Source: Anaeromyxobacter terrae (lineage in GTDB: Bacteria; Myxococcota; Myxococcia; Myxococcales; Anaeromyxobacteraceae). Taken from it: DNA of 64,000 bases. The stretch is taken from positions 124,001 through 188,000 of the forward strand of contig NZ_JALCYY010000001.1 of the NCBI RefSeq assembly GCF_022690685.1, read 5' to 3'. The notes beneath the pieces are model-generated. The model made no database searches, was not told the DNA's origin, and worked only from the letters and a program-made list of their open reading frames with translations. Made by a program: the position numbers and the translations under genes. Below are positions 42,852 through 57,442 of the stretch, in pieces (the first letter of the stretch is position 1; the number at the start of each line of letters is the position of its first letter).

Positions 42852-43826
42852 ATGGCTCAGAAGAAGCGCCCGGTGACGAAGAGCGGGCGGCCGCGCGCCC
42901 GCAAGGGGGTGAAGCTCACGCCGACCGAGCTGACCCCGCCGCAGCTCGCCCTCGCCGAGCGGCCGCCGGAGCTCGAGGAGCTCGCCGGCGAGATCGAGCG
43001 GGACGGGGGCGCGGTGCTCGCCACCTACCGCGAGCCGCTCGGCGGCCACGCGCTGCTCTTCGCGGCGCTGCCCGTCGACAAGGTCGAGCGCACGCCGTTC
43101 CAGCGCGACGTCTCCGACGCGCACGTGCGCAAGCTCACCGTCGCGATGGACAAGACCCGCCGCTACCTCGACCCGATCATCGTCGTGCGCGAGAAGGACG
43201 CCTGGCTCACGCCGAACGGCGGCCACCGCCTCACCGCGCTGAAGGAGCTCGGCGCGCGGAGCGTCCTCGCGCTCGTGGTGCCGGAGCGGCAGGTCGCCTA
43301 CCAGATCCTCGCGCTCAACATCGAGAAGGCCCACAACCTGCGCGAGAAGGCGCTCGAGGTCGTGCGCATGTACCGCGACCTCGCGGGCTCGGTCGATCCG
43401 AAGGAGAGCGAGATGGCGCTCGAGTTCGAGGAGGCCGGCCTCGTCACGCTCGGCATCGCCTACGAGCAGCGCCCGCGCTTCTCAGGCGGCGCCTACGCGC
43501 CCATCCTCAAGAAGGTGGACGCCTTCGTGGAGGAGAGGCTCTCGAAGGCGCTCCCCGAGCGCGAGCGGCGCGCCAGGGCCGTGCTGGAGCTCGACGACGC
43601 CGTGTCCGAGGCGGTGGCGCGGCTCAAGGAGCGCGGCTTCGACTCGCCCTATCTCAAGGCGTTCGTCGTGGCGCGCGTGAACCCGCTCCGCTTCATGAAG
43701 GGCGGCGCGCCGCCCTTCGACGAGCTCTTCGCGCAGATGACGAAGCGCGCCCGCGGGATGGATCCGGCCAAGATCCGCGGGGAGGACGTGGCGCGCTCCG
43801 GCGGCGCCGCAGCGGAAGCGGAATGA
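42852..43826 (+). CDS. Stand-alone ParB/Srx-domain protein
   Basis: 324 aa. A basic N-terminus is followed by a ParB N-terminal (nuclease/CTPase-like) domain at ~70-160: V-E-R-T-P-F-Q-R, then N-G-G-H-R-L-T-A-L-K-E-L in place of the usual G-E-R-R box. The rest is helical and acidic, with no ParB C-terminal dimer region that I recognise. parA and parS-like sites are absent nearby, so a role in segregation is less likely than regulation or a CTP-dependent clamp. Divergent from the ABC ATPase. Confidence 0.78.
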   Translation: MAQKKRPVTKSGRPRARKGVKLTPTELTPPQLALAERPPELEELAGEIERDGGAVLATYREPLGGHALLFAALPVDKVERTPFQRDVSDAHVRKLTVAMDKTRRYLDPIIVVREKDAWLTPNGGHRLTALKELGARSVLALVVPERQVAYQILALNIEKAHNLREKALEVVRMYRDLAGSVDPKESEMALEFEEAGLVTLGIAYEQRPRFSGGAYAPILKKVDAFVEERLSKALPERERRARAVLELDDAVSEAVARLKERGFDSPYLKAFVVARVNPLRFMKGGAPPFDELFAQMTKRARGMDPAKIRGEDVARSGGAAAEAE

Positions 43827-43854
43827 TCGGCGTCCCCGGGATCGTGCGCCGAGC

Positions 43855-44334
43855 TCAGCGGCGCGCGCTCTTCGCCTCGCTCCGCGCCAGCACGAGCCGC
43901 TTCTCGAGCTCGCCGCCGATCGTCGCGAGCGCCTCCTCGTCCACGTGCAGCTCGGCGTACGGGAAGAGGTCGCGCTCCTCCCAGCGCACGTGCCGCTCGA
44001 GCAGCTCCGCGAACGCCGCCAGATCGGCCCGCTGCTCGCCCGGCCGTGCGCCCCGCGCGGCGTCGAGCAGCCGCTGCAGCTCCGCGTGCTCCCCGCGCAG
44101 CCGGCGCAGGTCGCTCTCGGTCAGGTGCCGGCCGATGAGCTCCTCCTCGGCGCGGCAGTGCGGCCGGAGGATCTGCTCCTCGAAGCGGCGCGCGAGGGCC
44201 ATGAGGCCGGGCAGATCCTTCGGTGCACCCGCCGACTCCGGATGGCCGGCGAGCCCCTGCTTCAGCTGGAAGGAGATCAGGAGCGCCTGCTGGTGCTCGC
44301 TCGAGAGAGGCTTCAGCGCGCGCGACCGCTTCAT
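43855..44334 (-). CDS. Hemerythrin-like HHE-domain protein
   Basis: 159 aa, all-helical. His and Glu ligands of the di-iron site recur as S-S-E-H-Q-Q near 14, H-C-R-A-E-E-E near 59, G-E-H-A-E-L near 80 and H-V-R-W-E-E-R near 112, the HHE cation-binding pattern. Members bind O2, NO or iron and often appear in microaerobic bacteria. Convergent with the ParB-domain gene. Function beyond the di-iron site is unproven. Confidence 0.85.
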   Translation of the reverse strand: MKRSRALKPLSSEHQQALLISFQLKQGLAGHPESAGAPKDLPGLMALARRFEEQILRPHCRAEEELIGRHLTESDLRRLRGEHAELQRLLDAARGARPGEQRADLAAFAELLERHVRWEERDLFPYAELHVDEEALATIGGELEKRLVLARSEAKSARR

Positions 44335-44503
44335 GAGGGGATGGTGTCGGAGAACCCAGGGACACGCAAGGGAACCCTCCTCCCGCGGGCGGGCGTGCGA
44401 GCCCGGCCGGGGGGAGGCCCTCGGCGTCGTTGACGCTCCGCGCCAAGCTCCTTACAACTCGCCGAGCAGCCGACCGATTCCCCAGTCAATCGGAGAGAGA
44501 TCC

Positions 44504-45811
44504 ATGGGCATGAACGGTACCGTTCCTCCGGGCCGCCGGGCGGCCGTCGTCGCGGGCCTCCGCACGCCGTTCGTCAAGGCGGGCACGGACTTCAAGGACC
44601 TCTCCGCCGTCGAGCTCGGCGCGCTCGTCGTGAACGAGCTCGTCGCGCGCAGCGGGATCCCGCCGAAGGAGTTCGACTCGGTGGTGTTCGGCCAGGTGAT
44701 CCCGTCGCCCACCGTGACGCTCATCGGCCGCGAGATGGTGCTCCGCACGCAGCTCCCGCGCAGCGTGCAGGCGCACACCGTCGCCCGCGCCTGCGCCACG
44801 TCGATCCAGACGACCACCGACGCGGCCGACCAGATCCTGCTCGGCCACTCCGACTGCGCCATCTCGGGCGGCGCCGAGTCCCTGTCGGACGCGCCCATCT
44901 TCGCGACCCGCGCGCTCGCGCAGGCGCTCGTCGAGCTCTCGCGGGCGAAGACCCTCACCGACCGGCTCCGGCTCCTCTCGACCCTGCGCCCGAAGGACTT
45001 CGCGCCCCAGCCGCCCGCACTCAAGGAGCCGACCACGGGGCTCACCATGGGCGAGAGCGCCGAGCTCATGGCGCAGCGGAACGGGATCTCGCGCGAGGCG
45101 CAGGACCGCGTCGCCTACGAGAGCCACCGCCGCGCCGCCGCGGCGTGGGAGGGCGGCAAGTTCGACGGCGAGGTCATGCACGTCCCGGTGCCGCCGCGCT
45201 TCGAGCGGGTCGCCGCGAAGGACAACGTCGTCCGCAAGGAGACGACCCTGGAGGCGCTCGCGGCGCTCAGGCCCGTGTTCGACCGCAGGTACGGCACCAT
45301 CACCGCCGGCAACGCCTCGCCGCTCACCGACGGCGCCGCCGCGCTCGTGCTCATGAGCGAGGACAAGGCGCGCGCGCTCGGGATGAGGCCGCTCGGCTTC
45401 GTCCGCTCCTACGCCTACGCGGCGCTCGATCCGCGCGACCAGCTCCTGCAGGGGCCGGCCTACGCCGCGCCGGTGGCGCTCGACCGCGCCGGGCTCCGGC
45501 TCGCGGACATGGACCTCGTCGACATGCACGAGGCGTTCGCGGCGCAGGTGCTCTCCAACCTGAAGGCGTTCGCCTCGAAAGACTTCGCGGCGAAGGAGCT
45601 CGGCCGCCCGGAGCCGCTCGGCGAGATCGACCCCGCGAAGCTCAACGTGAACGGCGGCTCGATCGCCCTCGGCCATCCGTTCGCCGCCACCGGCGCGCGG
45701 ATGATCGTGCAGACGCTCCGCGAGCTCTCGCGCCGCAACGGCCAGTACGCGCTGCTCACGGTGTGCGCGGCGGGCGGCCTCGGGGCGGCGCTCGTCCTCG
45801 AGCGCGAGTGA
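44504..45811 (+). CDS. fadI: Acetyl-CoA acyltransferase, beta-oxidation complex beta subunit
   Basis: 435 aa from ATG 44504, with CGGAGAG upstream. Thiolase motifs are complete: the nucleophile Cys97 (A-R-A-C-A-T-S-I-Q), H-E-A-F-A-A-Q near 345, G-H-P-F-A-A-T-G near 390 and the second Cys in V-C-A-A-G-G-L-G near 425. It cleaves 3-ketoacyl-CoA with CoA to release acetyl-CoA. The alpha subunit gene follows after 31 bp, so the two form the beta-oxidation complex. The order and the pairing with a FadJ-like alpha subunit favour fadI over fadA. Confidence 0.93.
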   Translation: MGMNGTVPPGRRAAVVAGLRTPFVKAGTDFKDLSAVELGALVVNELVARSGIPPKEFDSVVFGQVIPSPTVTLIGREMVLRTQLPRSVQAHTVARACATSIQTTTDAADQILLGHSDCAISGGAESLSDAPIFATRALAQALVELSRAKTLTDRLRLLSTLRPKDFAPQPPALKEPTTGLTMGESAELMAQRNGISREAQDRVAYESHRRAAAAWEGGKFDGEVMHVPVPPRFERVAAKDNVVRKETTLEALAALRPVFDRRYGTITAGNASPLTDGAAALVLMSEDKARALGMRPLGFVRSYAYAALDPRDQLLQGPAYAAPVALDRAGLRLADMDLVDMHEAFAAQVLSNLKAFASKDFAAKELGRPEPLGEIDPAKLNVNGGSIALGHPFAATGARMIVQTLRELSRRNGQYALLTVCAAGGLGAALVLERE

Positions 45812-45842
45812 GCACGGGCCCGGACATCGCGGAGGGACGCAC

Positions 45843-48011
<2,169 letters not shown>

Positions 48012-48526
48012 CTCCTGCGCTCCCGGCGCGACGTCCCCGAGGCCCCGCGACGCCCCGCTGCGTCGCGGGGCCTCTTCGTTTCGGAGCGTCGAGCGGCTCG
48101 ACGAACCTGCGCGGGCCACCGCGACCATCGGTGCGGGTCCCGCGACGGCACCCGGGTCCCGCAGGACCGTGGCCTGTCTGACGCGCAAAGGGATTCCGCG
48201 AAGCGAGCAATTACGCGCAACAGCGCGGAATGGTTGCCCCAGGTCAAGATTCGCGCTTCGGGCGTTGTCTGGCATGGAGCGTCGAGCGGGGGATTCCATG
48301 ATCGCCGCTTCGTGGAATTTCGCGCGCTGGAATCACAGGTTCGGCGTCGTCCCTGAGCCGACTTCACGCAGGGTCCGTGGCGAAGACCTTGCGCGAGGAG
48401 ACGGGGGTGAGTCTGGCGCGCATGACGCAAATGAGCGTCGGGCAATTTGACGCAGCGCCAACTCGCGCTTTTCATGCGCGACCCGCCCCCCCGATGGGCG
48501 CGGGGACTCTCTGGAGACGACGACAC
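48012..48526. other. Long intergenic region upstream of decaheme cytochrome 1
   Basis: After the fadIJ terminator it becomes visibly richer in A and T than its surroundings. It holds AGCAATTACGCGCAA at 48206-48220, inverted repeats TTCCGCG/CGCGGAA (48194-48229) and ATTCCA/TGGAAT near 48293-48318, and TGACGCA twice near 48423 and 48448. I see no convincing gene; the open frame at 48169-48450 lacks a ribosome site. It must contain the cytochrome promoter. Confidence 0.55.
48039..48081 (+). terminator. Rho-independent terminator of the fadIJ operon
   Basis: A perfect 14-bp stem (GAGGCCCCGCGACG at 48039-48052 with 48061-48074), 8-nt loop, then TTCGTTTC. It lies 27 bp after the fadJ stop. Confidence 0.85.
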
Positions 48527-50707
48527 ATGACGAGACAGCTCTTCAAGGCGATGGGGATGTTCCTCCTCGCCGGCACGCTCGCGCTCGCGGGCTGCTCGGC
48601 GGACAAGGGTGATCCGGGTCCCGCTGGCCCCACCGGCCCCACGGGACCGACCGGGCCGACCGGCCCTGGCGGCGCGGACGGGCAGACGCCCATCACCGCC
48701 GAGACCTGCGCGCTCTGCCACGGCAAGTCGCAGCTCGCGGACTCCGCCGCCGGTCACGACGCGGTGGCGGCCGCCGCGCTCGCGAAGGGCAGCATCACCG
48801 TGAACGCGGTGGTCGTCGACACCAGCACCGACTCCCGCCAGCCGGTGGTCCTCTTCACGCTCAAGAACGACAAGGGCGTGGCCGTCGCCGGCTACACGCG
48901 CTTCCGCCTCACGGTCGCGAAGCTCGTTCCCGCCGCGGGCGGCGAGCCGGACAAGTGGCAGGCGTACGTGAACAGCAAGTCGACCACCACGACGGCGATC
49001 AACCCGACGACCGAGTACTCCTACGGCACGACGGGCTCGGTCGGCACGATCCGGGACCTGGGCAACGGCGTGTACGAGTACACGTTCAAGACCGATCTGG
49101 CCTTCGTGTCCGCCCCGCTCGCGGTCAGCTACGACGCGGCGGCCGTGCACCGCATCGGCATTCAGACCGCCGACAGCACGTACACCGACGCCACCACCGG
49201 CACGCCGGTGCTCACGGTCGCGGCGAACGGCTACGCCGACTTCATGCCCGAGAGCTCGACCCTCGTCGCCACGGCGCGTGACATCGCCACGACCGCGGCC
49301 TGCAACCAGTGCCACGGCAAGCTCACGGTCCACGGTCGCCGGATGGAGATCCCGTTCTGCGTCACCTGCCACAACAAGGGCGGGATGGACTCGAGCGGCT
49401 CGCCGATCGACATGACGGTCATGGTCCACCGCATCCACGCGGCGTCGGTCGTGAAGAACCCGTTCACCATCGGTAGCCACGACTTCAGCGGGGTGACCTA
49501 CCCGCAGAGCGTCCTCAACTGCACGAAGTGCCACACCGGCGCGAACGCGGACGCCTGGAACACCAAGCCGAGCGCCCACGCCTGCACGAGCTGCCACGAC
49601 GGCGTCGTGTTCGCCGGGACGACGCCCGGGACGAACCAGGTGGCCCACCCGTTCAACATCGCCGCCACGGCCGACTGCAAGTCCTGCCACACCACGGACC
49701 AGCTCACGACCGCGCACGCGCAGGTCGACCAGGTCGAGGCGAAGAAGCTCAAGTACGAGATCGTCTCGATCGCGAAGACGGCGCCGGGTGAGCTCCCGGC
49801 CGTGACGTTCAAGGTCGTCGAGGTCGCGACGGGCAACGCCGTCGACATCAAGGCGAGCCCGTACTTCACGCAGCCGAACGGCGCGTCGTCGCTCGCGGTC
49901 CTCATCGGCTGGAGCAACTCCGACATCCGCAACGTCGGCACGAACGCGACGTTCGGCGGGGCGGTGAGCATCAACGCGCTGGGCCCTGCGGCGGTCGCGA
50001 ACGGCGACGGCACGTTCACCGTCACCTCGACGGTCGCGGTCCCGGCCGACGCCAAGGGCAGCGGCACCGTCGCGCTCCAGGGCCACCCTGCGGCCGTGGT
50101 GAACGGCGCCGCGGTGCGCCTCCCGGTGACGAGCGTCTCGAAGCCGTTCGCCATCACGGACGCGACCCCGGTCGCGCGCCGCACGGTCGTCAACATCGCC
50201 AAGTGCAACGCCTGCCACGGCAACCTCAGCCTGCACGGCTCGAACCGCACGGGTGACATCACCACCTGCACGCTGTGCCACAACGGCGAGGCGACGGATC
50301 GCTCGAAGCGCCCGGCGACCGGCACGACGGCGGACGGCAAGGTCGAGGAGTCGATCGACTTCAAGACCATGATCCACGCCATCCACGGCAACCAGGAGCG
50401 CTCGACCGGCATCGTGGTGTACGGCTACGGCAACTCGGTGAACGACTTCTCCGAGGTCACCTACCCGAACGTGCTCGCGAGCTGCCAGGCCTGCCACGAG
50501 GCCGGCACGTACGCCGACACGAAGGCGGCGACGGGCTCGACGACCGGCACCGGCGCCGACGCGGTGGACGTGACGGACAACCTCCGCACGACGAAGCAGG
50601 CCGCGGTCTGCTCCTCCTGCCACCTGAACTCCCTCGTGAAGAGCCACATGCTCCAGAACGGCGGCGCGTTCGGCGTCACGCAGGCGCAGATCGACTCGGT
50701 CCAGTAG
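48527..50707 (+). CDS. Outer-membrane decaheme c-type cytochrome lipoprotein (OmcA/MtrC family), collagen-like stalk
   Basis: 726 aa from ATG 48527. The lipoprotein signal ends L-A-L-A-G with Cys23. Immediately after comes a collagen-like run of eight Gly-X-Y triplets (G-P-T repeated), then a globular part with exactly ten C-x-x-C-H haem sites (CALCH, CNQCH, CVTCH, CTKCH, CTSCH, CKSCH, CNACH, CTLCH, CQACH, CSSCH) in two clusters of five or six separated by beta-rich domains. This is the OmcA/MtrC layout used for electron transfer to extracellular acceptors such as Fe(III). Likely lipid-anchored on the outer face of the outer membrane. Convergent with a second decaheme gene. Confidence 0.93.
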   Translation: MTRQLFKAMGMFLLAGTLALAGCSADKGDPGPAGPTGPTGPTGPTGPGGADGQTPITAETCALCHGKSQLADSAAGHDAVAAAALAKGSITVNAVVVDTSTDSRQPVVLFTLKNDKGVAVAGYTRFRLTVAKLVPAAGGEPDKWQAYVNSKSTTTTAINPTTEYSYGTTGSVGTIRDLGNGVYEYTFKTDLAFVSAPLAVSYDAAAVHRIGIQTADSTYTDATTGTPVLTVAANGYADFMPESSTLVATARDIATTAACNQCHGKLTVHGRRMEIPFCVTCHNKGGMDSSGSPIDMTVMVHRIHAASVVKNPFTIGSHDFSGVTYPQSVLNCTKCHTGANADAWNTKPSAHACTSCHDGVVFAGTTPGTNQVAHPFNIAATADCKSCHTTDQLTTAHAQVDQVEAKKLKYEIVSIAKTAPGELPAVTFKVVEVATGNAVDIKASPYFTQPNGASSLAVLIGWSNSDIRNVGTNATFGGAVSINALGPAAVANGDGTFTVTSTVAVPADAKGSGTVALQGHPAAVVNGAAVRLPVTSVSKPFAITDATPVARRTVVNIAKCNACHGNLSLHGSNRTGDITTCTLCHNGEATDRSKRPATGTTADGKVEESIDFKTMIHAIHGNQERSTGIVVYGYGNSVNDFSEVTYPNVLASCQACHEAGTYADTKAATGSTTGTGADAVDVTDNLRTTKQAAVCSSCHLNSLVKSHMLQNGGAFGVTQAQIDSVQ

Positions 50708-50769
50708 ACGAGCCACACTCCCGGCGGACGGCGGCCCCGCCGCCGCCCGCCGGCAGCCTGAAGCACCCG

Positions 50770-50810
50770 CCGCCCCCCCGGAGCCTCGCGCCCCGGGGGG
50801 CGGTTCGTTT
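50770..50810 (+). terminator. Terminator of decaheme cytochrome 1
   Basis: CCGCCCCCC (50770-50778) pairs with GGGGGGCGG (50795-50803), with a short extension after one bulged base, followed by TTCGTTTCG. It starts 63 bp after the stop. Confidence 0.75.
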
Positions 50811-51176
50811 CGTCCGTGCCGATCGGCGGACGAGGCGGGCGCCTGCGCCCGGCGGCGACCATCGGTCGAGCACGAGGGCCGCGACGATCAGAGGTGGCCG
50901 TAGTGCGGCGGCCACGACTTCACCGCGGCGGCAAGATGACAGCGCTGTACGAGCTCGCGCTCCTGGCGCTGATCGCTCGAGTGGACCCGCCCGCCCTCGC
51001 CCTTCGACAGGCTCGCATCCGATGCAACACGGCCGTCGCCGGCGTTACGGTGGGCCCGCACGCGCCGGCGTACCGGGTCGAACTCGTGCGCCCGGCGCGC
51101 TTCCCCATGAAAAAGAGTGAGGCGGGCACCTTCGTGCGAGCCGCACCGGGGGTAAGCGATGGTGCGAGTAAAAGGT

Positions 51177-51202
51177 GCGAGGTGGGGCGGACCCCACCTC
51201 GC
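51177..51202 (-). terminator. Terminator of decaheme cytochrome 2
   Basis: GCGAGGTGGGG pairs perfectly with CCCCACCTCGC around a 4-nt loop (11 bp). On the minus strand it is followed by ACCTTTTAC. It lies 9 bp after the stop. Confidence 0.85.
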
Positions 51203-51211
51203 CGGTCTCGA

Positions 51212-53581
51212 CTAGAGGCCGTCCGCCCAGCGGTTGAACGCCGCCTGGTGGTCAGCGCCCGCGTTCGGGTGGCACACCACGCAGCTCTCGACCTGCGCGC
51301 CATCGACCGGCGTACCGGTGAACGCCGGGGCGACGCCGATCTGGCCCATGATGTCCTGGGTGACCGCGTCGAGGTTGGCGCTCGTGCCGGCCACGAGCGT
51401 GCCGAACATGGCCGTGTGCTGGTTGAACGCGGCGAGCGTGCCGGCGTCGTCCTCGTTGATGAGCTTCGCGCGGTGGCAGGAGCCGCAGGCGCGCGACGCC
51501 GGGCCGACGGCGTAGCTCGGGACGTTCTGGATGTTGCGGTTCGCGACGGGGTCCGACGCCGAGAGGAGGCTCGGCAGCGACTTCGTCTGGTCCGGCACCT
51601 CGTACGTCCCGCTGTTGTGGCACGAGTTGCAGTTCAGGGTCCCGGCGAAGTTCGGGTAGTTGCCCTCGACGTGCAGCTCGTGGCGCAGCACCGCGATCGG
51701 GTCGGCGTAGTTGATGTCACCCGGATCGAACGCCTGCATCGAGTGGATGGCGTGGATGTAGGAGTCGATCGACCGCGACTGCATCTCGAGGTGCGACCCG
51801 CCGTTCAGGACGGTGTGGCAGGTGCGGCAGGCGACGACGCCCGCGCTGCCGTAGGAGGCGTTGTGGAACGTCGTCCCGAGCGCGTCGTGGCAGGCGTTGC
51901 ACTTCGCCGGGTCCACGATGTTCTTGCCGTACGAGCTCGCGGCCGCGACGAGCGTCGTGGCGCCGACGAGATCGACGGTCTGGGCCACGCCCTTGATGGC
52001 GAGGGCGGGGCTGGCGGTGTCAGCGAGGTTGCTGAGCAGCTTCGGAAGGACGACCACCTCGGCCCGCTCGACCGTGGAGCCGATCTTGGTCGCCCAGGTG
52101 CTCAGGTCGATCGTGGCGGTCCAGGACGGCGCGGTGCCGCTGAAGGTGACGCGCGGGTGGACCGTGGCGCCGGCGGTCGCCTCGAGGTTCCGGCTGCCGT
52201 CCGCGTGCGTCCCGTGGCCGCTGACGACGAAGTCCTTCGTGCCGTAGCCGTAGAGGCTCACCACAACCGTCGGGACGATGTTGGCCGCCGTCTGGGTGAT
52301 GCTGTCGCCGCCGGTCTTCGTCGCGCTGAAGCTGACGGTCAGCACGTTCGTGGTCTTGTCGAACGAGGCCGAGTCGACCTTGGTCGTGAAGACGTCCGAG
52401 TACCGCGTGCCGTCAGCGGCGTAGATGGTCGCGATGCGGCCGCCGTGGATCTGCTTGAACGTCTTGGCGCCGCCGACCTTGTGGCACAGGCCACAGTCCG
52501 TGGTGGCGAGGTCCATGCCGCCGTGGATGGCCGCCGGCATGACGCCCGGGTTCGTCGTCGTCCCGTCGCCCAGGAGGGCGGGGGCGCGCTTCGGGTCGGT
52601 GCCGCCCTTGCCGTTCACCGGGTGGCAGCTCTTGCAGGTGGAGATCTTGAAGTTGGCGTCGGCGAGGACGACGTCGAGCTTGCCCTCGTGGCAGGTCACG
52701 CAGTTCGCCATCGACTGCGGGAAGTTGAACTCCATCGCGTGCGACATGTGCGTGTCGTTCATGACGTTCGCCGTGTAGGCGTACGTCGTCTTGTCGGCCG
52801 TCGTGATGCCGTCGGCCTTGTACCCGGCGGGATCGTCGGCGATCTTCTGCCAGTCCTGGTCCGACCCGACGCGCTTGCCGGTGTGGCAGGCCTTGCAGGA
52901 CGCGAAGTCCGGCAGGCCGGCGACGCGGGCCTGGCGGTAGCCGTGCTTCGAGTACGGCGCGCCGTGGCACTTCTCGCAGCCGGAGACGTTCGCCGAGGAG
53001 GTGTAGTCGATCGCGCCGTAGACCTTGGCCGCGCTCGCCACGTTGTCCGGGAACGCGTAGTGGCCGGTCGTCGGCGCCTGCAGCACGGTCGCGTCCGCGA
53101 TGTACCCGTAGATCATCGCGCTCTGCGAGGTCTCGGGGACGAAGCTCGGGTTCACGCCGGTCTTCGAGACGGCCGTGTACTGGGCGCCCTTGCCGCCGTC
53201 CACGATGCCCTTGAAGTGAATCCCGCCGTTGAACTGGAAGGTGTGGTCCGTGCTGAAGGTCTTCGTCGCCGCGTCGTACTCCGAGGCGTAGAAGGTCTTC
53301 TGCGTCATGTTGCTCAGCGTGTCGTCACAGGCCCCGCCCGGGCAGGCCGCAGCCGCCGGGTAGACCGTGAAGGTCAGCGTCGACGTGGTCGCGGTGGTCG
53401 CGACGCCGTCGATCACGAGCTTCAGCTTGCCCGTGACCGCGCTCATGCCGTCGTTGCCGTTCGTGCCGTCGGTACCGTCGGTGCCGTTGGCGCCGTTCGC
53501 GCCCTTCTCGCCCTGGCAGCCCGCCAGCGCGAGCACGCCGGCGAAGAGCAGCGCGCCGAACTTGTTCATCCGTCTCTGCAT
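51212..53581 (-). CDS. Second outer-membrane decaheme c-type cytochrome lipoprotein, collagen-like stalk
   Basis: 789 aa from the ATG at 53581, where GGAGGG lies 9 nt upstream; ATG 53569 is an alternative. The lipobox L-A-L-A-G ends at Cys22. Seven Gly-X-Y triplets follow (G-E-K, G-A-N, G-T-D type), hydrophilic and Pro-free, unlike the Pro/Thr type of the neighbouring cytochrome. Ten C-x-x-C-H sites are present (CEKCH, CKACH, CVTCH, CKSCH, CGLCH, CNACH, CRTCH, CNSCH, CGSCH, CVVCH), five on each side of a beta-rich middle domain. OmcA/MtrC-like extracellular electron-transfer protein. The partner porin/periplasmic cytochrome genes are not in the window. Confidence 0.93.
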   Translation of the reverse strand: MQRRMNKFGALLFAGVLALAGCQGEKGANGANGTDGTDGTNGNDGMSAVTGKLKLVIDGVATTATTSTLTFTVYPAAAACPGGACDDTLSNMTQKTFYASEYDAATKTFSTDHTFQFNGGIHFKGIVDGGKGAQYTAVSKTGVNPSFVPETSQSAMIYGYIADATVLQAPTTGHYAFPDNVASAAKVYGAIDYTSSANVSGCEKCHGAPYSKHGYRQARVAGLPDFASCKACHTGKRVGSDQDWQKIADDPAGYKADGITTADKTTYAYTANVMNDTHMSHAMEFNFPQSMANCVTCHEGKLDVVLADANFKISTCKSCHPVNGKGGTDPKRAPALLGDGTTTNPGVMPAAIHGGMDLATTDCGLCHKVGGAKTFKQIHGGRIATIYAADGTRYSDVFTTKVDSASFDKTTNVLTVSFSATKTGGDSITQTAANIVPTVVVSLYGYGTKDFVVSGHGTHADGSRNLEATAGATVHPRVTFSGTAPSWTATIDLSTWATKIGSTVERAEVVVLPKLLSNLADTASPALAIKGVAQTVDLVGATTLVAAASSYGKNIVDPAKCNACHDALGTTFHNASYGSAGVVACRTCHTVLNGGSHLEMQSRSIDSYIHAIHSMQAFDPGDINYADPIAVLRHELHVEGNYPNFAGTLNCNSCHNSGTYEVPDQTKSLPSLLSASDPVANRNIQNVPSYAVGPASRACGSCHRAKLINEDDAGTLAAFNQHTAMFGTLVAGTSANLDAVTQDIMGQIGVAPAFTGTPVDGAQVESCVVCHPNAGADHQAAFNRWADGL

Positions 53582-53601
53582 GTGGTGAAACCCTCCAGGT
53601 G

Positions 53602-53623
53602 GGCTGGGCGCGAGCGCCCAGCC
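53602..53623. promoter_or_regulatory. Hairpin in the leader of decaheme cytochrome 2
   Basis: GGCTGGGCG (53602-53610) is complementary to CGCCCAGCC (53615-53623), a 9-bp stem with a 4-nt loop, located 20-42 nt upstream of the start codon. It could stabilise or regulate the mRNA leader. Confidence 0.5.
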
Positions 53624-53633
53624 TTGATCTCTA

Positions 53634-53657
53634 GCAATTGTTGGTTCAGGCAATTGC
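53634..53657. promoter_or_regulatory. AT-rich dyad upstream of decaheme cytochrome 2
   Basis: GCAATTG and CAATTGC are arranged as an inverted repeat with a 10-nt spacer, 53-76 bp before the start. The AT-rich half-sites are unusual for this DNA and fit a dimeric regulator binding site near the promoter. Confidence 0.5.
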
Positions 53658-54346
53658 AGACTGCCCGTCGCGCATGAAACGAGGGGAACCCCCCTCCGTC
53701 TAGATTCCGACCCCCGAATGCGTGCCGCGAGCCAAAATCAACGGAGGCTCGCAGCGCAAATCCTCCGAGGCTCAGTGCGCCGGCGCGCATCCGGATCTCG
53801 CGGGCAACCTGCCGACGGAACGACGCTTTTGCCGCTGTGCCGCGGAGCCGTGCATTGGGTGACGTTCTCTCGCTGTGAATCCCGCAAATCGCGCGCGGGC
53901 TTCCGGATTGGTGCGGCAAGAAAGCGCACCGACAGACAACGGCAGCAAATACGCGCAATTGGCGTCGCCCGAGCGGATCATTCGCGCGCTCGGGTTGGAC
54001 GTCACCCCTGGGTCAGGAGCGTGCCCCTGCGGCAATGAGCCGCCGGCGCGGGCGCTCGCACCGAGCGCGAAGGCGGCCTCGCGGCGTTCAGAGGCTGGCC
54101 CGCAGGCGGGCCTCGCGTCTCCACGACTCTCCACGACGAAGCGATCCCGTCCATCGCGACGCTGGCGATGGAGCGGCCGGCACGTCGTCCAGCCTCTCCG
54201 CGAAGACGCAGGACCTGCTCGGCAGGCCGCGAGAGCTCCGGCGCGAGCCGAGAGCCGACCAGGCACGGGCAGGCCACCGTCCGGCAGCACCCGCGGCGCG
54301 CCGGGCGCTGCTGGGCTATAGATGCGGTCGACCCGCGAGGCGCCCC

Positions 54347-55282
54347 GTGAAGCTCCGCCGCATCCTGCCGCTCGTCATCGGCTTCGTCCTCGTCCCCGCG
54401 GCGCTCATGCTGACGGTGGGCATCCTCATCCTCGTCTACGGCACCCTGCCGCGGGACTACGTCTTCGGCTGGCTCATCGTCGCGCTCGTCACGACGACCA
54501 TCGCGGGGTCGGCCGCGACGCTCGCGGTGATCTTCCGCGAGGCCCGGCTCGCGAAGCTCCAGACCGACTTCGTGAACAAGGTCTCCCACGATCTCAGGAC
54601 GCCGCTCACCTCGATCCGGATGTTCGTCGAGACGCTCCAGCTCGGCCGCATCCCCGACGAGGCGCGCCAGCGCGAGGCGCTCGAGATCATCTCGGAGGAG
54701 ACCGCCCGGCTCTCCGGGCTCATCAACAGGCTCCTCGACTGGGCGCGTATGGAGTCCGGCCGCCGCAGCTACCAGCTCACCCGCGAGCCGGTCGGCCCCA
54801 TCGTCGATTCGGCGCTCCAGGCGTTCGAGGCGCTGCTCCTGCAGCACCCGGCGACGGTGGAGCGCCACGTCGCGCCGGACCTGCCGCCGGTCATGGCCGA
54901 CCGGAAGGCGCTCTCCGAGGCGATCCTCGACCTCCTGCAGAACGCCCACAAGTACACCGGCCCCGAGAAGCGCATCACCGTGCGCGCCGTGGCGAGCGGC
55001 CCGACCGTGCAGATCAGCGTCTCCGACAACGGGCCGGGCATCCCCGAGCGCGAGCACAAGCGGATCTTCAAGAAGTTCTACCGGGCGCGCGACCCGCTCT
55101 CGCGCACGATCGAGGGGACCGGCCTCGGGCTCGCGATGGTGAAGCACATCGCGAACGGCCACGGCGGCAAGGTGTCGGTGGCGAGCCAGGTGGGCCACGG
55201 CGCGACGTTCACGATCTCGCTGCCCGCGCTCGGCGCCGTCGCCGAGGCGCCGCAGGGCGCGCGCGCGGCGCGGCCCGCTTAG
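54347..55282 (+). CDS. Sensor histidine kinase (OmpR-type partner)
   Basis: 311 aa, GTG start with GAGG upstream. Two transmembrane segments (about 6-27 and 36-58) with almost no periplasmic loop. The phosphoacceptor box V-S-H-D-L-R-T-P-L-T-S near 80 and HATPase motifs L-L-Q-N-A-H-K-Y, D-N-G-P-G-I and G-T-G-L-G-L follow. No HAMP domain is evident. With so small an extracytoplasmic part it may sense within the membrane or through a partner. Followed 9 bp later by its response regulator; it lies upstream of the divergent decaheme cytochrome. Confidence 0.92.
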   Translation: MKLRRILPLVIGFVLVPAALMLTVGILILVYGTLPRDYVFGWLIVALVTTTIAGSAATLAVIFREARLAKLQTDFVNKVSHDLRTPLTSIRMFVETLQLGRIPDEARQREALEIISEETARLSGLINRLLDWARMESGRRSYQLTREPVGPIVDSALQAFEALLLQHPATVERHVAPDLPPVMADRKALSEAILDLLQNAHKYTGPEKRITVRAVASGPTVQISVSDNGPGIPEREHKRIFKKFYRARDPLSRTIEGTGLGLAMVKHIANGHGGKVSVASQVGHGATFTISLPALGAVAEAPQGARAARPA

Positions 55283-55291
55283 GGAGAACGT

Positions 55292-55984
55292 GTGGGCGAG
55301 AAGATCGTGGTGATCGAGGACGATCCTTCCATCCTCCGCGGGCTGCAGCTCAACCTCGGGATGGAGGGCTACACCGTGCGCTCGGCGAGCGACGGGGAGA
55401 CGGGGCTCCGGCTCGCCAAGACCGAGAAGCCCGACCTCGTCCTCGTCGACGTGATGCTGCCGCGGCTCGGCGGGCTCGAGGTCGTGCGCGAGATCCGCAA
55501 GGACGACCCCGAGCTGCCCGTCCTCATCCTGTCCGCGAAGGGGCAGGAGGGCGACAAGGTCGCCGGCCTCCAGCTCGGGGCGGACGACTACCTGGTGAAG
55601 CCGTTCGGGCTGAAGGAGCTGCTCGCCCGGATCGACGCGCTCCTGCGGCGCCGGCGCGCCCGCGGGGAGACCGGCCCGAACCGCGCCGTGCGCAAGGCGG
55701 GCCAGATCGAGCTCGACCTCGACTCCCGGCGCGCGACGGTGGCCGGCAACCCGGTCGAGCTCACGAGCCGCGAGTACGATCTCCTCGCCTTCTTCGTCCT
55801 GCACCCCGACCGCGTGTTCAGCCGCGAGCAGCTCATGGAGGCGGTGTGGGGCTCGCGCTACTTCGGCACGGCGCGCACGGTGGACAACTTCATCGCCCGG
55901 CTGCGCGCCCACATCGGCGACGACGCGGAGCATCCCCGCCACCTGGAGACGGTGCGCGGGGTCGGCTACCGCTTCAATCCGTAG
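55292..55984 (+). CDS. OmpR/PhoB-family response regulator
   Basis: 230 aa, GTG start with GGGAGAA upstream. Receiver: I-E-D-D acid pocket, phospho-acceptor Asp53 (L-V-D-V-M-L-P), conserved S-A-K and V-K-P-F. The C-terminal winged helix has the usual L-T-S-R-E-Y-D-L-L, V-W-G and T-V-D-N-F-I-A-R-L-R motifs. Cognate partner of the histidine kinase 9 bp upstream. Control of the adjacent cytochrome is plausible from position only. Confidence 0.95.
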   Translation: MGEKIVVIEDDPSILRGLQLNLGMEGYTVRSASDGETGLRLAKTEKPDLVLVDVMLPRLGGLEVVREIRKDDPELPVLILSAKGQEGDKVAGLQLGADDYLVKPFGLKELLARIDALLRRRRARGETGPNRAVRKAGQIELDLDSRRATVAGNPVELTSREYDLLAFFVLHPDRVFSREQLMEAVWGSRYFGTARTVDNFIARLRAHIGDDAEHPRHLETVRGVGYRFNP

Positions 55985-56005
55985 AGACGGGGCTGCGCCC
56001 GGCGC

Positions 56006-57442
56006 TCAGCGGCTCCCGCCTGCTAGGGCCTCCCGCAGGCAGCGCACGAGCGGCTCGTCCTCGCCGGGCAGGACCGTGCGCGGATCGAGCACGACCCGAT
56101 CCTCCTCGATCCGCGCGACGACGGGCGGATCGCCGCGGCGGAGCCGCGCGAGGAGCGCGTCGGGATCGCCGGCGGGGAGGGCGAGCACGAAGGTCGGGAG
56201 CGTGACCTCCGGCAGGGAGCCGCCGCCGATCGCCGAGCGGCCCGGGAGCACGGCGGAGCCGGCGCCGGCGGCGCCGAGCGCAGCGCGCCAGCGCTCGGCC
56301 CTCTCGCGCAGCGCCTCCGGCGTCGTCGCGATCGCGCGCCAGACCGGGACCTTCTCGAGCGCCTCGCCGCGCTCGTAGTGGGCGAGCGTCGCGCCGAGGC
56401 CGGCGAGGGTGACCTTGTCGACGCGCAGCGCGCGCATGAGGGGGTGGCCCTTCACGCGCCGGATCGCCTCCCGGCGCCCGACGAGGACGCCCGCCTGCGG
56501 GCCGCCGAGCAGCTTGTCGCCGGAGAAGCAGACGAGGTCGGCGCCGGCGCGCACCCGCTCCTGGACCGTCGGCTCGAGCCCGAGCCCGTGCGGCGCGGTC
56601 TCGAGGAGCGTGCCCGAGCCGAGATCATCGACGACCCACAGGTCGCGCTCGCGCCCGAGCGAGACGAGCTCCTCGAGCGTGGCGTCGTGCACGAACCCCT
56701 GCACGCGGAAGTTCGAGCGGTGCACGGACATGAGGATGCGCGTGCGCGGCCCGATCGCGTCCTCGTAGTCGCGCCGGTAGGTGCGGTTCGTCGTGCCCAC
56801 CTCCGCGAGCGCCGCGCCCGAGCGGCGCAGCACGTCGGGGATGCGGAACCCGCCGCCGATCTCGACGAGCTGGCCGCGCGACACCACCACCTCAGGCGCC
56901 CCGTCCACCGGGGCGTCGCCGGACGGGCGCGCCGGTATGAGGGCGGCGAGCGCGAGCATCACCGCCGACGCGTTGTTGTTCACCACGACCGCCGCCTCCG
57001 CGCCGGTGAGCCGGCAGAGCGGCGCCTCCGCGTGGCCGTAGCGATCGCCGCGCTCGCCCGCCTCGAGGTCGTACTCGAGGTTCGTGTAGCCGGCGGCGGA
57101 ACGACGCATCGCGTCGATCGTCTCCTCGGACAGGGGCGCGCGGCCGAGGTTCGTGTGGACGACGACGCCGGTGGCGTTGATCACCGGCCGCAGCGACCCC
57201 TTCGACGCCGCCTCCAGCCGGTCGAGGAGGTCGCGCTCGATGGCCTCGGGGGGCGGGCAGGGGGCGCCACCCAGGATCTCGCGCCTGATCCGCTCCAGCT
57301 CCGCCCGAACCGCCTCCATCACGACGCCGTGACCGAGCCGTCGCACGAGGCCCGCTTTCTCGGCCGCTTCCAGCAGCCGGTCGGCACGCGGCAAGTTTCG
57401 AGCCTCGGACGGGGGGCTCGCGGGCGAATTTGGAGCTTTCAT
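56006..57442 (-). CDS. selA: L-seryl-tRNA(Sec) selenium transferase
   Basis: 478 aa, typical SelA length. PLP-binding Lys310 in F-S-G-D-K-L-L-G-G-P-Q-A-G, substrate region I-N-A-T-G-V-V-V-H-T-N-L-G-R near 88, and N-N-N-A-S-A-V near 155. It converts Ser-tRNA(Sec) to Sec-tRNA(Sec) using selenophosphate, so the organism should make selenoproteins. selB, selD, tRNA-Sec and any in-frame TGA with a SECIS-like element were not seen in this window. It is convergent with the OmpR-type regulator and divergent from nuoL. Confidence 0.95.
   Translation of the reverse strand: MKAPNSPASPPSEARNLPRADRLLEAAEKAGLVRRLGHGVVMEAVRAELERIRREILGGAPCPPPEAIERDLLDRLEAASKGSLRPVINATGVVVHTNLGRAPLSEETIDAMRRSAAGYTNLEYDLEAGERGDRYGHAEAPLCRLTGAEAAVVVNNNASAVMLALAALIPARPSGDAPVDGAPEVVVSRGQLVEIGGGFRIPDVLRRSGAALAEVGTTNRTYRRDYEDAIGPRTRILMSVHRSNFRVQGFVHDATLEELVSLGRERDLWVVDDLGSGTLLETAPHGLGLEPTVQERVRAGADLVCFSGDKLLGGPQAGVLVGRREAIRRVKGHPLMRALRVDKVTLAGLGATLAHYERGEALEKVPVWRAIATTPEALRERAERWRAALGAAGAGSAVLPGRSAIGGGSLPEVTLPTFVLALPAGDPDALLARLRRGDPPVVARIEEDRVVLDPRTVLPGEDEPLVRCLREALAGGSR

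Follow-up and report, generated by a model that had tools for sequence, protein, structure and literature searches.

Cytochromes of the OmcA/MtrC family are models for extracellular electron transfer, and their haem 10 is regarded as a main exit to minerals. In MtrCAB, one MtrC, one MtrA and one MtrB form a heterotrimer, in which MtrC docks on MtrA through haem 5 and presents haem 10 approximately 90 Å above the bilayer core; soluble MtrC is called monomeric (PMC7198977). For Anaeromyxobacter, Pcc clusters have been proposed as the electron exit at the outer membrane, and were reported without a linked outer-membrane cytochrome (PMC4245776). Collagen-like regions of bacterial proteins can form triple helices, though short Gly-X-Y regions may not (PMC4565658).

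Here, we describe two convergent genes, A and B, in a window of 64,000 nucleotides from Anaeromyxobacter terrae, the whole stretch of DNA analysed. The initial annotation had read both products as lipoproteins with ten CxxCH sites and a Gly-X-Y run just behind the lipobox, and this description is confirmed. The runs are real, but their lengths, given there as 8 and 7 triplets, were off and amount to nine triplets in A and eight in B.

Gene structure and family assignment

The following features were located in the window:

48527..50707, + strand: gene A, 726 aa, lipid-anchored decahaem cytochrome of the OmcA/MtrC family, probably circularly permuted
48527..48595, + strand: predicted signal peptide and lipobox of A up to the lipidated Cys23 (...LALAG-C23), from sequence
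48608..48688, + strand: stalk A, nine Gly-X-Y triplets (GDP GPA GPT GPT GPT GPT GPG GAD GQT)
48701..48757, + strand: putatively relocated haem-10 module of A, E-T-C-A-L-C-H-x11-H, from a profile match
49301..50623, + strand: haems 1–9 of A, from sequence, alignment and haem profiles
50789..50802, + strand: weak terminator-like hairpin 3′ of A, from sequence
51177..51202, − strand: terminator-like hairpin 3′ of B, 11 pairs, T-rich tail, from sequence
51212..53581, − strand: gene B, 789 aa, lipid-anchored decahaem cytochrome from a divergent branch of OmcA/MtrC, with C-terminal haem 10
51248..51289, − strand: C-terminal haem-10 module of B, E-S-C-V-V-C-H-x6-H, from sequence and haem profiles
53441..53512, − strand: stalk B, eight Gly-X-Y triplets without Pro (GEK GAN GAN GTD GTD GTN GND GMS)

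The intergenic region between A and B contains two terminator-like hairpins, one per gene. In A, the residues SADK separate Cys23 from the nine triplets, and CxxCH occurs at residues 61, 259, 278, 332, 353, 384, 560, 581, 653 and 695. With 452.2 bits against a curated cut-off of 209.3, A is a TIGR03507 member by score; it has the ten CxxCH sites and the lipobox of that family and also carries PF22112 and PF22113. It lacks the C-terminal haem 10 of the solved OmcA/MtrC members, a trait outside the curated TIGR03507 definition. In B, the lipobox (...LALAG-C22) is followed by Q and then the eight triplets, and the ten CxxCH sites are found at residues 202, 229, 294, 316, 363, 561, 585, 651, 699 and 767. 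Since B stays below the TIGR03507 cut-off (123 vs. 209.3 bits), yet passes PF22113 (86 vs. 30), we class it by these scores as a divergent OmcA/MtrC relative and do not count it as a TIGR03507 member.

AlphaFold models of both proteins were based on alignments drawn solely from the related loci collected here. Because of this restricted input, the model of A is modest (mean pLDDT 61.6, residues 1–86 below 50), and that of B is useless for fold comparison (pLDDT 32.7). Searched with Foldseek, the modest-confidence model of A has the four-domain MtrC/MtrF fold (E-value of 2.5e-27 to 6QYC), and its best solved structures are MtrC, OmcA, UndA and MtrF.

Gly-X-Y stalks in A, B and their relatives

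When the 40 residues following the cysteine were shuffled 100,000 times, the nine triplets of stalk A were never reached, and the same was true of the run in B (0 of 100,000), which in this case was counted as nine by including the Gly ahead of the Cys. Glycine codons in stalk A are mixed (GGT, GGC, GGA, GGG); therefore, the repeat is not a fresh product of DNA slippage. Compared with an 81% identical orthologue in genome G017, stalk B has kept all of its glycines; two Gly codons differ synonymously, and two residues at X/Y positions are replaced.

Relatives were surveyed for at least four triplets within 12 residues of the lipobox cysteine. Such a stalk is present in 50 of 66 Myxococcota homologues and in all 18 homologues from Shewanella, but in none of the 29 other, mostly beta- and gammaproteobacterial homologues. 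Poly-Gly takes its place in 21 of these 29, and Pro-rich linkers are a further substitute outside Myxococcota and Shewanella. The number of triplets per protein has a median of 10 and a range of 1–25 over all 66 Myxococcota proteins and lies between 4 and 8 in Shewanella; homologues with a stalk have 4–25 triplets. Poly-Gly stands in for the stalk in one Myxococcota branch that belongs to the genus of the window (L002, L075, L076, L078, L079). The chain sequence of Shewanella baltica MtrC in 6R2Q has CGGSDGNDGNPGEPGGEP behind the lipobox. Judged by this survey, Gly-X-Y stalks are an ordinary feature of the OmcA/MtrC family. A haem-specific device was considered and rejected, as non-haem lipoproteins of the same genome (L015, L020) bear Gly-X-Y stalks too.

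Further Gly-X-Y proteins were seen alongside. Directly or shortly past the lipobox, the non-haem lipoprotein L015 (G000:C99:10818) has 17 triplets and the one at L020:1501–1557 (G000:C35:83492) has seven. L019/L154 (L154:5603–8695, G000:C76) is a lipoprotein with nine CxxCH sites and a stalk of 11 triplets (GSNGKDGKDG...), outside the TIGR03507 matches of the genome. The top Collagen match of the genome (40.9 bits) is L013 (G000:C1:28884–29138), a protein of 34 triplets with no lipoprotein context. Several Myxococcota decahaem lipoproteins (L189, L196, L198, L200, L094, L105) have Cys-containing repeats between a short Gly-X-Y run and domain I; this spacer type, CTVTDNGDGTxTIxCxDGTxVTV, differs from the stalk.

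The initial annotation had offered two roles for the stalks, namely setting the distance from the outer membrane or driving trimerisation, and had suggested that their different chemistry keeps the homotrimers of A and B from mixing. The first role is plausible and fits the variable length and exchangeable composition. For the second, each stalk would have to fold into a collagen triple helix, resulting in homotrimeric cytochrome bundles with the two chemistries separating A from B. The unbroken Gly-X-Y register, the Pro content of stalk A (7 of 27 residues), the glycines of stalk B, invariant relative to its orthologue, and the triple helices possible for bacterial collagen-like regions (PMC4565658) speak for such bundles. 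However, run length varies from 4 to 25 triplets, poly-Gly replaces the run among relatives, 8 of 69 stalks, that of B among them, are free of Pro, and bacterial Gly-X-Y regions as short as these may not form helices (PMC4565658). Further, S. baltica MtrC, which bears a stalk sequence, sits 1:1:1 in MtrCAB and its soluble form is called monomeric (PMC7198977). Neither stalk reaches the gathering cut-off of Collagen PF01391 (27.2 bits; A 19.4, B 20.2), and a Pfam domain search recognised no trimerisation domain beside them. Trimers formed by the stalks therefore appear very improbable to us. Nor did we find evidence for a barrier to mixing, as paralogue identity is not tracked by stalk type. 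The annotation had also named a survey of homologues as a check, with functionally equal homologues lacking the run counting against its proposal; in part, the outcome does count against it, as the run is missing or replaced by poly-Gly in homologues, paralogues from the same genome included.

A flexible tether, loosely constrained in length and composition, fits best, since stalk length varies, poly-Gly or Pro-rich segments act as substitutes, non-haem lipoproteins carry stalks as well, and a stalk-bearing MtrC is described as monomeric. As tethers, the Gly-X-Y runs would be extended, exchangeable leashes on which the large folded haem body stands off the membrane, and they would need no collagen triple helix. 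Homotrimerisation through the stalks seems neither needed nor indicated and is unsupported. Such leashes are routine in these lipoproteins, including the model proteins of Shewanella, and should not be counted as evidence for trimers.

Position of haem 10 in A and its relatives

The order of the haem sites in A is unusual, with one CxxCH right behind the stalk and none beyond haem 9. A ends 27 residues past haem 9, where its relatives run on into haem 10. Truncation of A by a frameshift, with haem 10 left downstream, was considered and rejected, as there is no CxxCH in any forward frame over approximately 480 nt past the stop codon. The C-terminal haem-10 motif E-x-C-x-x-C-H-x11-H is found in 19 of 20 relatives aligned with A and is missing in A itself and in L049. 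Directly behind its stalk, A has E-T-C-A-L-C-H-x11-H, with the same spacing as this C-terminal module.

Among 108 relatives with ten haems, the haem-10 module is N-terminal in 17, C-terminal in 91 and present at both ends in none. L049 was examined as a case with both ends filled and rejected, its last CxxCH being haem 9 by alignment. All 17 proteins with an N-terminal module terminate shortly past haem 9. Profiles of the ten haem sites were built from the 91 ordinary proteins with a C-terminal module (106 of 110 sites correct in a leave-one-out control). The N-terminal site of A matches the haem-10 profile best (+10.2), with haem 5 as runner-up (0.2), and the later sites of the 17 proteins mostly follow the profile order of haems 1–9. 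Fifteen of the 17 N-terminal modules were called haem 10 and two (L066, L105) haem 5; the haem-10 profile includes B's own branch, and the result for B-type proteins is partly a within-family one. The B-type module has a signature unlike that of the A type, CH-x6-H followed by Q, which is the same at either end of the protein: the module is C-terminal in B and four relatives and lies N-terminally next to the stalk in ten others (L099–L105, L107–L109).

These matches indicate that the first CxxCH of A corresponds to haem 10 of the family, displaced from the C-terminal end, giving the haem order 10-1-2-...-9. The element, whose haem forms the far end of the wire in known MtrC, would have been transferred to a place between tether and domain I. 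Alternatively, nothing may have moved, and the N-terminal CxxCH could have arisen anew, unrelated to haem 10, or have been copied from haem 5, with haem 10 lost in an independent event. Two N-terminal modules do score best as haem 5, and haem 5 precedes domain III in a like manner; nevertheless, haem 10 is the best score in 15 of 17 modules, not one ten-haem protein has both ends filled, and the B-type modules hold their own CH-x6-H-Q signature wherever they are placed. We therefore regard an independent gain and loss as quite unlikely.

Three relatives of B (L110, L111, L114) have twelve haems. Their haem-10-like module (CH...HQ.IYN/ALYNKF) is N-terminal and preceded by two extra CxxCH sites, and haem 9 is their last site. 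In the open-licence literature, searched in part by titles and abstracts, we found no report of permuted OmcA/MtrC or other decahaem or multihaem cytochromes, and nothing relevant on collagen-like regions combined with multihaem lipoproteins or a lipobox.

Internal repeat and history of the module

The segment of the permuted proteins running from haem 10 over domain I to haem 1 aligns end to end with the segment from haem 5 over domain III to haem 6 (hhalign 99.7%, E-value of 1.7e-24). The family consists of an internal duplication, one half made up of domain I and haems 1–5 and the other of domain III and haems 6–10, and domain III follows on haem 5 just as domain I follows on the moved haem 10. 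In such a tandem repeat, bringing haem 10 to the front would shift the repeat phase by a single haem, so that the folded wire should stay nearly unchanged. A near two-fold axis between the halves would put the C-terminus about as close to domain I as haem 5 is to domain III, and given this nearness the internal two-fold repeat would make such a permutation structurally easy.

To trace the module, a tree of the 108 relatives was calculated from haems 1–9 only, excluding stalk and end module. This tree, a quick search with long branches, requires the module to change its position about eight times, and at least six of these changes are forced by well-supported branches. In a more careful tree of the A branch, monophyly of the permuted proteins is rejected (AU p 1.75e-8), and the permuted L049 is sister to the ordinary L040 (support 100/98). 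With the twelve-haem relatives as root (support 85/93), themselves bearing the same kind of module at the N-terminus, the ordinary proteins of the B family form a single clade (100/100) nested among permuted ones. Since the ordinary clade is nested among permuted proteins and the root carries the module N-terminally, B probably descends from ancestors with an N-terminal module, which moved back to the C-terminus to restore the ordinary order. To judge from these trees, relocation of the end haem has happened repeatedly in the OmcA/MtrC family.

The stalks, the identity of the module by sequence, its mutually exclusive placement and several changes on the tree are shown by these data; surface location, a preserved fold and wire, the tether role and the direction of change are inferred. 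It is probable, in our assessment, that A and B are surface decahaem cytochromes on flexible tethers, with A a circular permutant, and that the module has switched ends repeatedly with the wire preserved.

Genomic neighbourhood

The genome of A and B (G000; 5.65 Mb) contains five TIGR03507 matches: A and B themselves and, on contigs C51, C53 and C86, three further genes. In seven genomes, one or two decahaem genes are flanked by a fadB-like gene on one side and a histidine kinase/response regulator pair on the other, and their number, order and orientation vary. G023 has the decahaem locus beside the kinase pair, with fadB not recognised. The relative of A at this same locus is permuted in G022 (46% identity) and ordinary in G023 (40%). 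The locus may be a turnover spot for surface cytochromes. Its fadB side is a thiolase/fadB-like pair (window 43823–57442; L145–L147, L149, L151, L153). Elsewhere in the genome, the frames L205–L209 (G000:C132:57197–60256 and C52) give numerous repeated hits below threshold with the MtrA-type decahaem model and possibly encode large periplasmic or extracellular haem chains.

Electron conduit and polarity of the wire

No match to MtrB (TIGR03509) was detected in the A/B genome, and for the MtrA-like TIGR03508 there are 29 sub-threshold multihaem matches and none above the cut-off; hence, neither the porin nor the MtrA-like decahaem protein of an MtrCAB conduit was recognised in this genome. MtrB was detected in none of 15 genomes, nearly all of which have the permuted form, nor in any other genome with such a form, and it is also absent from related genomes that contain ordinary forms only.

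The length of the tether bears on which pole of the wire faces the membrane. In 16 of the 17 permuted proteins, 38–108 residues separate the lipid from haem 10, which could span approximately 90 Å if extended; a rise of 2.9–3.5 Å per residue was used. L049 has 22 residues and a reach of at most approximately 77 Å, short of approximately 90 Å.

Permutation might have reversed the wiring, with the tethered haem 10 facing the membrane and taking up electrons and haem 5 as outer pole, the opposite of MtrC. The lack of MtrB in 15 mostly permuted genomes would agree with this, as docking of MtrAB at haem 5 need not persist, and so would L049, whose tether falls short of the height of haem 10 in MtrC. 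On the other hand, the 16 other permuted proteins have tethers sufficient for the posture of MtrC, and MtrB is likewise missing where only unpermuted forms occur, so that the link may be one of ancestry. We consider a reversed wire unlikely. It is equally doubtful that the permutation serves as a recurrent, reversible switch of the membrane-tied wire end, with electrons entering at haem 10 from a conduit other than MtrAB. Since the tethers are mostly long enough and absence of MtrB is common to genomes with ordinary forms, we favour a phase shift that is neutral and keeps the wire intact, reversal being possible but unproven.

Comparison with known systems

Bacterial collagen-like proteins such as Scl and Bucl share Gly-X-Y repeats in a surface protein. 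In contrast, the stalks of A and B are short, score below the Collagen cut-off, lie between lipid and domain and have no recognised trimerisation domain. The Pcc clusters of Anaeromyxobacter (PMC4245776) differ in another respect, as A and B adjoin no recognised porin gene.

OmcA (4LMH) and UndA (3UCP) are likewise surface multihaem cytochromes, and OmcA ranks just under MtrC in the fold search with A. UndA has eleven haems compared to ten in A, and the Shewanella relatives examined have the end module at the C-terminus.

The closest counterparts are MtrC and MtrF of Shewanella (6R2Q, 4LM8, 3PMQ), which, like A, have a lipobox, ten CxxCH sites in two halves and, according to Foldseek, the same fold. 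They also bear short Gly-X-Y-like stalks (CGGSDGNDGNPGEPGG in 6R2Q, CGGSDGDDGSPGEPGK in 3PMQ). MtrC docks on MtrAB, whereas A and B come from a genome without a detected MtrB. A natural series of proteins with haem 10 at either end and the rest conserved offers matched pairs for questions of chain order, tether and polarity. Within this comparison, haem 10 is C-terminal in MtrC and MtrF, whereas in A the corresponding module lies at the N-terminus, by the stalk.
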